From NCBI GenBank assembly GCA_944389565.1, contig CALXMV010000003.1:1-64000 (forward strand): 64,000 nucleotides of DNA. The letters run 5' to 3'. Below the pieces are notes generated by a model. That model saw only the letters and a list, made by a program, of their open reading frames with translations. It ran no database searches and was not told where the DNA came from. The number at the start of each line of letters is the position of its first letter. The first letter of the stretch is position 1. Positions 13,834 to 19,118 of the stretch are shown here, in pieces. Source of the DNA: an uncultured Kiritimatiellota bacterium. GTDB taxonomy: Bacteria > Verrucomicrobiota > Kiritimatiellia > RFP12 > DVOR01. Both the position numbers and the translations under genes were made by a program.

Positions 13834-13843
13834 GTGCTATCAT
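13834..13843 (+). promoter_or_regulatory. Promoter of the structured leader / restriction-modification locus
   Basis: TTTGTGCTATCAT shows an extended -10 (TGC plus TATCAT 13838-13843). Predicted transcription start is near 13850, giving about 190 nt of RNA before the first methylase ATG. Confidence 0.55.
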
Positions 13844-13849
13844 ACGCCC

Positions 13850-14039
13850 ACGCCACGGGAAAGCCGTGGAAAAACTTTGCATTTTGCAAAACAAGTCGCC
13901 CTAAACGAAACCGGCAAATTTCAGACAGCGAGCGACATGTCGAGCGAGGTGCGCCATATCTGGCGCGCTTCTCTTTGCGTGTTCGTTGTCAGGCCTTGCC
14001 GGGCCTCGTTTAGGGCACGCGAAGGAAGCGTGCCTTTTT
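13850..14039 (+). ncRNA. Candidate structured RNA (leader or independent small RNA)
   Basis: About 190 nt between a promoter and a terminator can fold extensively. Hairpin 13853-13869 pairs CCACGG with CCGTGG; hairpin 13876-13890 pairs TTTGC with GCAAA. A long rod follows: an 11-bp perfect stem 13898-13908/14006-14016, a 7-bp perfect stem 13911-13917/13996-14002, a 10-bp stem 13924-13933/13981-13990 with two G-U pairs, and an 8-bp apical hairpin 13949-13956/13961-13968. I match it to no known RNA family. The nested pairing is far beyond the neighbouring coding DNA, but conservation is untested. The last stem overlaps the terminator arm by 3 nt. Confidence 0.5.
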
Positions 14040-14040
14040 A
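14014..14040 (+). terminator. Terminator-like hairpin immediately before the methylase ATG
   Basis: GGCACGC (14014-14020) pairs perfectly with GCGTGCC (14028-14034) across GAAGGAA and is followed by TTTTTA. The T-run abuts the first possible ATG of the methylase (14040), so either the RNA upstream ends here or the hairpin acts as an attenuator. Confidence 0.6.
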
Positions 14041-14771
14041 TGTGCCCTCGGAAGGAGGAACCCAAACTCATCAAGTCCCGCAAACGTGTGCGGGACCATG
14101 GGGAAGTCTTCACCCCCGATTGGCTCGTGCGCGACATGTGCGACCTGGTGGGGGCGGCGTGCGACGATGTGGGCACCCGTTTCCTGGAGCCCGCCTGCGG
14201 CGACGGCAACTTCCTCACGGAGATCCTCCGCCGCAAACTTCGCGCCGCCCGCCGCCTGGCCGGCGGCCGCGCCGACACCGCCACCTTCCGCCGCGAGGCC
14301 TTCCGCGCCCTCACCTCCCTCTACGGCATCGACATCCTGGCCGACAACGTCCTGGCCTGCCGCGCCAAGCTCCTGGCCCAATGGGAGGCCGCTCACGGCC
14401 TGCGGGTGCGCCGACGCGCGCGTTGGGCGGAATGCCGCCGCGCCGCCGCCTTCGTCCTCGCCCAAAACATCCGGCACGGCGACACACTCCACCCGGAGGG
14501 CTCCGACTCCCTGGCGCCCATCGTCTTCGTGGAGTGGCGCTTCACGCCGGGCGAGGAGTGGGTCTCGGGGCGCATGTGGTCGCTGGCCGAGATGCTCGAC
14601 ACGCAGGGCGACACCCTCCCCTTCGCCGAGGAGACGCACACCCGCCTGCCGACCGTCCGCTACTGGGACCTCGGCGCCGACACCGAGGTCCCCGCCCGCC
14701 TGCCACCCGCATCCCCCGTCGTCGCCGCCGAGATCTTCGCCGACGGCACCGCGCAACCGTGCTTTCTGTGA
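14040..14771 (+). CDS. Methyltransferase-like protein of R-M locus (motif I only)
   Basis: A 243-aa protein with an N6-adenine-methylase Rossmann start: DHGEVFTPDWLVRDMCDLV (about 22-40), SAM-binding FLEPACGDGNFLTEIL (about 51-66) and LYGIDILADNVLACRAKLL (about 101). No NPPY/F motif exists, so it probably cannot methylate alone; it may be a partner or specificity subunit of the full methylase 11 bp downstream. The start is uncertain: ATG 14040 lies against the terminator-like hairpin, and a strong AAGGAGG at 14052-14058 precedes no standard in-frame start until GTG about 14088. Mostly GC-rich like the host. Confidence 0.6.
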   Translation: MCPRKEEPKLIKSRKRVRDHGEVFTPDWLVRDMCDLVGAACDDVGTRFLEPACGDGNFLTEILRRKLRAARRLAGGRADTATFRREAFRALTSLYGIDILADNVLACRAKLLAQWEAAHGLRVRRRARWAECRRAAAFVLAQNIRHGDTLHPEGSDSLAPIVFVEWRFTPGEEWVSGRMWSLAEMLDTQGDTLPFAEETHTRLPTVRYWDLGADTEVPARLPPASPVVAAEIFADGTAQPCFL

Positions 14772-14782
14772 AAGGAGCCGCC

Positions 14783-16282
<1,500 letters not shown>

Positions 16283-16283
16283 G

Positions 16284-19118
16284 ATGGCGGGCTTTGTGCT
16301 TGAGGGGAGGGCCGCGGTGCGGCCGATGATTTATGCGTATCGGCTGAAGGCGGAGGGTTACGGGGATCTGCTGAAGGTGGGGTACACGGAGCGTGACGTG
16401 GAGACGCGCGTGCGGGAGCAGGTGGCGAACATCAAGTTGCCGTTCGCCATCCATGAGATCGTCCTGCAAGAGTCGGCGATGCGTCGGGATGGGTCGAGCT
16501 TCGACGACCACGCGGTGCATCGTCTGCTGAAGCGACACGGGGTGCAACGGCCGGATGGGGAGTGGTTCCGCTGCGGGAAGGAGGAGGTGCTGGCGGCGAT
16601 CGTGGCCGTGCGCAACCGTCAGGATTACCAGGCGGCGCGGACGCGGGATTTCGCGATGCGCCCGGAGCAGGAGGCGGCCGTGCGGCTGACGGCGGATTAT
16701 TTCCGGCGGAAGGCGCAGGAGGAGCCGGGGACGAAGCCGCGGTTCCTCTGGAACGCGAAGATGCGCTTCGGGAAGACCTTCGCGGCGTATGAACTGGCCA
16801 AAGAGATGGGGTTCCAGCGGATTCTGATCCTGACCTTCAAGCCGGCAGTGGTGAGCGCGTGGGAGGAAGATTGCCGCACGCACGTGGATTTCGCGGGGTG
16901 GCAGTTCATCCGGCGGCAGGACGACCCCGCGGCGCCGGACCTCGAGGCGCAGTATCTGGCGACGGACGGGCGGCGGCCGATCGTCTGCTTCGGCTCCTTC
17001 CAGGATTTCCTGGGGCTGAATGCGCAGGGCGGCATCAAGGAGCAGCACAGGTGGGTGCGCGAGGAGCGGTGGGATCTCGTGATCTTCGACGAGTACCACT
17101 ACGGCGCGTGGCGGGAGAAGGCGAAGGACCTTTTCGCGAAGGAGGACGAGGAGGGCGAGGTGGAGGCGGCCGAGGCGGCGGACGCGAAGCCCACGGGCGC
17201 GGCGCGGCTCTCCGAGGAGGATCTGCCCATCCAGGCGGAGCGCTATCTCTATCTCTCGGGGACGCCCTTCCGGTCGTTGGCGAGCGGGGAGTTCATCGAG
17301 GAGCAGGTGTATGGGTGGACCTACGCGGACGAGCAGCGGGCGAAGGCGGCGTGGCGGGGGCCAGGGCCGAACCCTTACGCGGCGTTGCCGCAGATGGTGA
17401 TGCTGACCTACCGCCTGCCGGAGGCCATCCGCAAGGTGGCGGAGGCGGGGGAGTTCGACGAGTTCGACCTCAATGTCTTCTTCTCGACCACGCGGGGGGC
17501 GGACGGGCGGCCATGCTTCGTCTATGAGGAGCACGTGCAGCAGTGGCTGGACTACCTGCGCGGGCGTCACCTGCCGACGGCGGTGGAGGGGCTGAAGACC
17601 CACGAGCCCGTGGCGCAGCCCTTCGCGAAGGGTGCGCTGGCCGACGCGCTCCGGCACTCGGTGTGGTTCCTGCCGAGCGTGGCGGCGTGCGAGGCGATGG
17701 ACGCGCTCCTGCGCGCGCGGCGGAACACCTGGTGGCACGACTTCGGGGTGATCGTGTGCGCGGGCAAGCATGTGGGCATGGGGGCGGAGGCGTTGGGCGC
17801 GGTGGAGGAAAAGATGGCCGACCCGATGGCCTCGAAGACCATCACGCTGACCTGCGGCAAACTCACCACGGGCGTGACGGTGCGGCCGTGGGGCGGCATC
17901 CTCATGCTCCGAAACCTGAAGAGCCCGGAGACCTACTTCCAGGCGGCCTTCCGCGTGCAGAGCCCCTGGACCACGCGCGACGCGCAGGGGGGCGAGGTCG
18001 TTATCAAGCGGCAGTGCTACGTGCTGGACTTCGCGCCGAACCGCGCCCTGCGCCAGGTGGCGGAGTACAGCGGGAAGCTGAGCATCGACGCGGCGCTGCC
18101 GGTGACGGACGAGGAGCGTGTGGCGGCTTTCATCCGTTTCCTCCCCATCCTCTACTCCGACGGCGGGCGCCTCACCCCCATCGACGCCACGCAGGTGCTG
18201 GAGCTTGCCTTCACCGGCGACGCGGCCACGCTCCTGGCCCGCCGTTGGCAGAGCGCCCTGCTCGTGAACGTGGACAACGAGACCCTCAAGCGCCTGCTGG
18301 GCAACCCCGCGGCCTTCGACGCCGTGATGAAGATCGTCGCCGACCGCAACCTCGGGCGCGACACGCTCGAAACCATCGTCAACCGCACCGACGCCATCAA
18401 AAAGGCCAGGAAGGACGGCAAGGAGAAGACGCCCAAGGAGCGCAGCCTGCAGACCGCAGAGGAAAAGGAGCTGAAGAACAAACGCAAACAGGTGCAGGAG
18501 AAACTCATCAAGTTCGCCGCGCGCATCCCCGTCTTCATGTATCTGACGGACGACCGTGAGCACACGCTCCGCGAGGTCATCGAGCAGGTGGAGACGGCGC
18601 TTTTCGAGCGGGTGACGGGGCTGACGTTGGAGGACTTCAGGCTACTCGTCGCCCTGCGCCTCTTCAACGACGCGCTGATGAACATGGCCGTGCTGAACTT
18701 CAAGCGTTACGAGGACGCCAGCCTCTCCTACGCCGGTATCGACCGCCATGCCGGCGAGACCCGCGTCGGCGCCTGGGATACGCAGGTGCCACACCCGAAC
18801 CCTAAGGGGTTCGGCCGAGAGTCGGGAGGGTTTGGGGCGAGAGTCGGGAGGGCGTCAAGGCCGTTGGCGATGCGCAAGGCTCTTCCGCGCTTCCCACTTT
18901 CCACGGGCACCATTGCCCAAACTCTCGGCGATGCCGCCGGCAACGGGGAAATATGGTATAATTTTCGGGATTTTCGCGATTTCTGTTTGAGGAACCGGTC
19001 ATGGAAGAGAAGTATCCGTTTCACGCGATCGAGCCCAAGTGGCAACGTTTCTGGGATGAGCATGGCACGTTCGCGTGCGACACGCACGACGACAGCAAGC
19101 CGAAGTTCTACTGCCTGA
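16284..19118 (+). CDS. GIY-YIG/SF2 helicase restriction protein with abnormal C-terminus
   Basis: A 944-aa reading frame. An N-terminal GIY-YIG/T5orf172-like nuclease domain (about 14-105: [21 protein letters not shown] ending with DGEWFRC) precedes an SF2 helicase: [17 protein letters not shown] (motif I, about 154), FDEYHYG (motif II, about 268), YLSGTPFRS (motif III, about 325) and [12 protein letters not shown] (motif VI, about 551). A Lys-rich coiled coil lies at about 700-750. It is probably the cutting/translocating subunit beside the two methylase genes. The recognisable protein ends near residue 835 (YAGIDRHAG...VGAWDT, about 18785); the remaining ~110 codons are a translated intergenic repeat, the leuS promoter and 118 bp of leuS in another frame, so the native stop seems lost. 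Confidence 0.75.
18793..18853 (+). repeat. Intergenic repeat cluster 1
   Basis: Contains CCCTAAGGGG followed by two GTCGGGAGGG(TTTGGGGCGA) units. The same units occur at 33878-33962, 42064-42126 and 53474-53554. Here the repeat is translated in frame at the end of the restriction gene. Confidence 0.7.
18957..18962 (+). promoter_or_regulatory. -10 of leuS
   Basis: ATATGGTATAAT is an extended-type -10 located 38 nt before the leuS ATG. It lies within the abnormal C-terminal extension of the restriction gene. Confidence 0.65.

Follow-up and report, generated by a model that had tools for sequence, protein, structure and literature searches.

A covarying leader RNA family with two mutually exclusive folds precedes genes for defence and the cell surface in Kiritimatiellota and related bacteria

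Introduction

In trp-type attenuators, the pairing of segments 1:2 and 3:4 alternates with the pairing 2:3. In kissing-loop antisense systems, such as the RNAs that control plasmid copy number, hairpins with complementary loops could convert to an extended duplex. Leaders that depend on LoaP, UpxY or RfaH, as well as those with the EAR (eps-associated) element, precede polysaccharide and niche-specific operons and comprise small hairpins and terminators (PMC7819879, PMC12691694).

The present study deals with a structured region between positions 13850 and 14040 on the + strand of contig CALXMV010000003.1 from an uncultured Kiritimatiellota bacterium; the window is the whole stretch of 64,000 nucleotides that was analyzed. 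The element in this region belongs to a new family of bistable leader RNAs spread across the phylum, which is attenuator-like by kind and has no match among the families tested.

Results

Leader architecture

The + strand from 13850 to 14045 has a predicted minimum free energy (MFE) of -93.4 kcal/mol compared to a mean of -65.2 (sd 4.4) for 200 dinucleotide shuffles, none of which reaches the native energy (z -6.4), and the opposite strand folds too, though less strongly (z -3.7). The features of the region are collected in Table 1. A first-pass annotation of the same sequence had proposed four nested stems, of which P1, P2 and P3 were recovered with their proposed lengths, while the apical stem P4 is not restricted to 8 bp as stated there. 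The two small hairpins that it had placed before the rod, HP1 and HP2, reappear in the fold with covarying pairs, and the promoter noted with them corresponds to an extended -10 element, which recurs as a TGnTA...-type sequence at matching spacing in 67 of the 77 non-redundant copies from the genus. The gene upstream of the element, encoding SAICAR synthetase, is divergent, hence the promoter was assigned to the + strand unit. At the other end, an ATG at 14040 follows the U-run immediately, at a long spacing of about 11-12 nt from the Shine-Dalgarno-like AAGGAA. Nearly all full-length copies that were read end in a U-run or a CU-rich run.

Table 1. Features of the leader region and of the genes behind it (window positions)
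Feature	Position	Strand	Basis
Extended -10, TGcTATCAT (TG-C-TATCAT)	13835..13843	+	Sequence; 6 nt upstream of 13850
HP1, 6-bp hairpin, predicted transcript 5' end	13853-13858/13864-13869	+	Fold; covariation, 91 non-redundant copies
HP2, 6-bp hairpin	13876-13881/13885-13890	+	Fold; covarying pairs
P1, 11 bp	13898-13908/14006-14016	+	Predicted fold, covariation
P2, 7 bp	13911-13917/13996-14002	+	Predicted fold, covariation
P3, 10 bp	13921-13931/13983-13993	+	Predicted fold, covariation
P4, 20 bp, apical stem	13935-13956/13961-13982	+	Predicted fold, covariation
Rod P1-P4 overall, loop 13957-13960	13898..14016	+	Fold; class/phylum alignment A6
Segment a, linker ACAAGTCGCCCT, partner of b in alternative fold	13891..13902	+	Alternative fold; swap test
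Segment b, P4 5' strand and preceding junction (P3 end)	13927..13956	+	Swap tests, fold
Segment c, P4 3' strand and first P3' bases	13962..13984	+	c:d swap tests
Segment d, tail, 22 bp with c, has Shine-Dalgarno-like AAGGAA	14013..14034	+	Fold; swap tests
Mini-hairpin A, GAAA/TTTC flanking P2 5' strand, alternative fold only	13907..13922	+	Fold
Mini-hairpin B, AGGCCT/GGGCCT flanking P2 3' strand, alternative fold	13991..14006	+	Fold; variants
U-run, completes terminator-like hairpin	14035..14039	+	Sequence
Downstream gene 1, 243-aa ORF RKRVRDHGEVFTPDWLVRDMCDL...FLEPACGDGNFL, start right after U-run	14040..14771	+	ORF; no Pfam match
Downstream gene 2, Eco57I-type DNA methylase, start codon approximate	14756..16282	+	Pfam Eco57I, E 2.8e-30

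Family size and distribution

Diverged full-length copies within the source genome (2.26 Mb) were first seen by blast of the element. A covariance model built from six copies (R1) detects 21 copies in this genome with E-values from 4e-43 to 2.5e-5, and it has matches in 46 of 59 relatives, with a maximum of 32 copies in a single genome of the same genus. A second covariance model made from 101 sequences (R2) has matches in 136 of the 288 class genomes sampled and in 94 of 388 genomes of the phylum, the latter from 51 of 199 genera; the 294 phylum genomes with no match form the basis for judging its specificity, and copy numbers at class and phylum level are lower bounds, because few candidates were scored per genome. 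One of the 21 copies in the source genome, L029:1501-1580(-), is an 80-nt remnant or miniature, in which HP1, HP2 and a T-run end are kept and most of the rod is gone. Elsewhere, two elements lie on one strand about 1.1 kb apart (L104:351-543(+) and L104:1488-1671(+)).

The earlier impression that the structure resembles no nameable family is borne out by Rfam 15, including its riboswitches, T-box, 6S and leader families: no family reached its gathering threshold in the element, and only tRNA was found elsewhere in the window. At a permissive threshold the best chance match scored 19.7 bits, where the family's own threshold is 70, and 16 homologue loci likewise returned tRNA only. A description of the element was not found in the open-access literature.

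Conservation of the rod as RNA

The covariation check on relatives, which had been suggested with the first description, revealed abundant compensatory changes. In an alignment of 69 class-, order- and phylum-level sequences (A6), nearly all of them outside the R2 build set, 48 of the 50 model pairs in HP1, HP2 and the rod are changed on both sides. It contains 817 double-changed cells, compared to 240 (sd 17) after shuffling and 73-147 in slid controls, and 92% of its cells pair, values that have to be read in the light of the fact that A6 was fitted to the structure and is thus biased towards it. Double changes are already present at 26 of 52 pairs in an unfitted MAFFT alignment of six copies, and the rod pairs are top-ranked by mutual information among 91 copies. 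Strong covariation is seen in each of the four stems and in the two small hairpins. Furthermore, G-U pairs exceed A-C mismatches by 238:63 and 483:70 in two homologue sets, which indicates that the + strand RNA is the selected strand.

The lower stems P1-P3 are fast-evolving in general. Two copies of one genome, L015:127-320(-) and L017:1501-1692(+), precede the same glycosyltransferase start and are near-identical outside P1-P3 (identity 0.93-0.94); within P1-P3 the identity is 0.56-0.59, with both arms differing widely and complementarity kept. Another two copies with similar flanks in G001 and G005, apparently orthologous (L089 and L091), have an identity of 0.37 in P1-P3 and 0.82 in the remaining element. 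The idea taken from L015 and L017, that P1-P3 serve as addresses kept distinct between copies of the same genome, was dropped, because the excess divergence of paralogues (0.22) lies within that of other pairs (0.20-0.25) and the orthologous L089 and L091 differ equally.

A second, mutually exclusive fold

The strands of the rod (state R) can be rearranged into an alternative fold (state T), in which the tail d pairs with c over 22 bp directly abutting the U-run, and a together with HP2 pairs with b. Segment b has therefore two possible partners, c in the rod or a and HP2 in the alternative, while c pairs either with b or, in the terminator-like hairpin, with d; the 3' portion of a overlaps P1. 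The 7-bp terminator hairpin described in the first-pass annotation is possible (GGCACGC/GCGTGCC), but what the family conserves is a different pairing, the longer c:d helix. Similarly, the competition it had suggested between outer stem and terminator was right in kind and the overlap is real, but the main rival pairing is that of the tail with the 3' strand of P4.

The alternative pairings are absent from both the R1 and R2 models. They were evaluated by swap tests, in which the energy of pairing between strands of a single copy is set against that of strands exchanged between copies, using segment borders from the model alignments. In a genus-rich set of 86 copies the z-values were -41 for P1-P3, -18 for b:c, -22.9 for c:d and -12.4 for a:b, whereas the control pairings a:d, a:c and b:d ranged from 0.2 to 1.5. 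The distant set of 61 copies gave -36, -14, -15.5 and -6.3, respectively, with controls between -1.2 and 3.3. The energy of T minus that of R amounts to +1.6 +/- 6.1 kcal/mol (95 copies) and +2.3 +/- 6.6 kcal/mol (67 copies), where T was calculated as two halves folded apart and R as the rod lacking the tail, and all energies refer to naked RNA at 37 C. The two states are hence almost equal in predicted energy, although for the full sequence 148 of 162 copies have the rod as their predicted MFE fold. The c:d hairpin, a GC-rich 22-bp stem GGCGCGC.../...GCGTGCC followed by UUUUU, has the sequence characteristics of an intrinsic terminator.

The nucleotides flanking P2 (GAAA and UUUC; GGGC and GCCU) resemble internal loops in the rod and would close two mini-hairpins in T. 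Mini-hairpin A has at least 4 bp in 91% of the 162 copies and a weak swap signal (z 7.1), and compensatory variants of mini-hairpin B occur among the copies (GGGC/GCCT, AAGCC/GGCTT, GGGG/CCCT and GGTT/GACC). Since the loops of both mini-hairpins are the P2 strands and thus complementary, a kissing interaction between A and B might occur; a cruciform within the rod could account for these pairs as well. Collectively, the comparison of copies shows two conserved sets of predicted pairings, which use common strands on the + strand and are located before genes.

These observations also bear on the notion that the element is a dispersed repeat, a MITE-like mobile element or a DNA palindrome, whose hairpins serve replication or recombination and not RNA. 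Its many palindromic copies near variable genes, certain of them near-identical and preceding different genes, would be in line with such an origin. However, the one-strand excess of G-U over A-C, the conservation of alternative pairings and the placement with respect to promoter and start codon point to RNA, blastn of the window copy against phages and plasmids gave no match, and the HP2 pattern of the copies classified below as type I was not found in viral contigs. An explanation at the DNA level is hence regarded as very improbable.

Position of the start codon

Among 162 copies examined, the start codon directly follows the U-run in 95 (type I) and lies further downstream in 67 (type II). 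Of 74 non-redundant genus copies, 48 have the U-run immediately followed by a start codon that opens an ORF; such a start occurs in 3-6 of 74 in the nearest control windows and in 2 of 54 wider homologues. In type II copies the tail helix is still GC-rich onto the U-run, the start codon is situated tens of nucleotides downstream, and a segment 3' of the U-run (e) pairs with d (swap z -5.4; type I, z 0.0). Six copies at L021-L026, mostly of type II with the d:e hairpin, precede genes for PEP-CTERM proteins (exosortase substrates) that share a C-terminal VPEPTALAL...RRR motif.

The promoter-like sequence, the strong terminator-like 3' end and the numerous diverged copies per genome could equally belong to a stand-alone small RNA, which would act in trans and end with c:d at the U-run, the neighbouring gene being expressed by leakage or otherwise. 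We consider this unlikely, since start codons right after the U-run are far above the control windows, recurring gene families follow on the same strand, and a role of c:d as a mere terminator would leave the strands of the rod without an obvious function. Quite unlikely, too, is a purely translational switch, in which no termination occurs, c:d masks the ribosome-binding site and the rod exposes it. It would follow an identical pairing logic, and the type I tail does carry a Shine-Dalgarno-like sequence beside the start codon, but the GC-rich tail helix runs directly onto the U-run as in intrinsic terminators, type II included.

Downstream genes

The first gene behind the element in the window contains the methylase-like motif FLEPACGDGNFL, and ORFs of this type also follow the element in L080, L094, L108, L123 and L129. 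A frameshift in the methylase was rejected as explanation, because relatives likewise have a short first ORF, which indicates a two-gene arrangement and not a broken methylase. Directly after the methylase, an ORF at 16284-19118 with a T5orf172 (GIY-YIG-like) domain might be a nuclease partner.

The 87 ORFs following genus copies, to which some copies contribute two candidates, include PEP-CTERM (15), acyltransferase (10), GtrA (9), Mrr/ResIII restriction (7), glycosyltransferase (5), EcoRI-type methylase (4), N6 methylase (4), FrhB/ferredoxin-type (4) and HsdM (3) genes, given as raw counts. Behind the wider copies, 58 ORFs comprise 11 EcoRI-type methylases, three SPFH and two SNF2 proteins, with single cases of the DISARM protein DrmD, a phospholipase-D anti-phage protein and a type III methylase. 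The targets of the family are thus genes for restriction-modification and phage defence, surface glycans and secreted proteins of the exosortase (PEP-CTERM) kind across much of the phylum. In this regard, the attenuator-like control of the methylase envisaged in the first-pass annotation is the best-supported of its candidates; it is, however, not specific for methylases or defence, as glycosyltransferase, acyltransferase, GtrA and PEP-CTERM genes are preceded as well. A guide-like component of the defence module had also been considered, and no guide-like feature was found.

Discussion

The region in the window is probably the entire leader 5' of the downstream gene, running from the gene's own extended -10 up to its start codon, and would serve as a two-state cis-regulatory attenuator. 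We infer that the element switches between its two folds and that transcription ends at the tail hairpin. In state R, the transcript would zip into the P1-P4 rod and leave the tail with the U-run and the Shine-Dalgarno-like sequence free, permitting transcription and translation to go ahead (ON). In state T, P4 would be dismantled, its 5' strand being paired by the linker and HP2 and its 3' strand by the tail, giving a GC-rich hairpin of roughly 20 bp with an immediate U-run, i.e. an intrinsic terminator, which would also hide the ribosome-binding sequence (OFF). The flanks of P2 would then close the two mini-hairpins with complementary loops, which could kiss and convert to the rod. This assignment of ON and OFF is the simplest reading, because the GC-rich c:d hairpin sits on the U-run and also covers AAGGAA. 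In favour of this model are the covariation of the rod, the preference of the alternative strands for partners from their own copy, the near-equal energies of the two states, the promoter ahead and the start codon behind the element, the d:e pairing in copies lacking an adjacent start codon, and the strand bias of G-U pairs. Against it, the local P4 hairpin would form before the tail exists, so that T requires strand exchange; the rod as predicted MFE fold of most copies, the long distance from AAGGAA to the ATG and the frequent lack of an adjacent start codon in wider homologues also count against it. A signal, which might be a protein, a small RNA, a metabolite or the speed of RNA polymerase, would bias the choice of state.

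Alternatively, the leader might be read by a specialised NusG paralogue of the RfaH, LoaP or UpxY type that lets the polymerase pass the terminator. The similar targets, i.e. polysaccharide and niche-specific operons (PMC7819879), and the small 5' hairpin, comparable to the LoaP-bound dfn leader (PMC12691694), are in favour of such a factor. However, none of 17 genus genomes (incomplete assemblies) had a second PF02357 match; these genomes have one or no NusG-domain gene despite up to 32 elements, which makes a NusG paralogue extremely unlikely.

Returning to the two-state attenuator, it would be of wider importance, since a structured RNA so covarying, multi-copy and phylum-wide rarely stays uncatalogued, and it would give Kiritimatiellota and their relatives, in which regulation is little known, one shared point for controlling genes of defence and the cell surface. 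As a rather doubtful extension, phage-facing genes (restriction-modification and other defence, surface glycans, exosortase-anchored proteins) might be co-regulated phylum-wide by refolding between kissing hairpins and rod, possibly independent of a ligand, and such bistability could create cell-to-cell variation with no need for DNA inversion. The effects of single and compensatory mutations can be predicted from the two folds and tested, and a signal, if found, could prove to be a novel ligand of riboswitch type, a novel RNA-binding regulator or bistability at the RNA level.

Comparison with known systems

Like terminator riboswitches, the element is a 5' leader ahead of a start codon, in which an antiterminator-like and a terminator-like fold exclude each other. 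A conserved unpaired binding pocket is not obvious, because the conserved nucleotides flanking P2 can pair in the mini-hairpins of the alternative fold, though a pocket might nonetheless exist; its targets span more than one pathway and suggest no ligand. With the LoaP-, UpxY- and RfaH-dependent leaders and the EAR element it shares the position before such operons, small hairpins and a terminator-like end; it differs in its long alternating rod and in that no NusG paralogue in the genus and no Rfam match were detected. The two hairpins with complementary loops recall kissing-loop antisense systems, but both are part of one transcript here, and the putative kissing would lead to an extended duplex that would be the gene-on leader. 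A conserved leader peptide, whose translation would set the choice in a trp-type attenuator, was not found: an ATG within the first 60 nt that is followed by a stop inside the leader occurs in only 28 of 77 copies, and the lengths disagree. As in a trp-type attenuator, a, b, c and d alternate between a:b with c:d and b:c, the last pair is terminator-like with a U-run before the gene, and the chain a:b, b:c, c:d and d:e resembles the alternation known from there, whereas the equivalent of the 2:3 form here sits inside a further rod of three helices.
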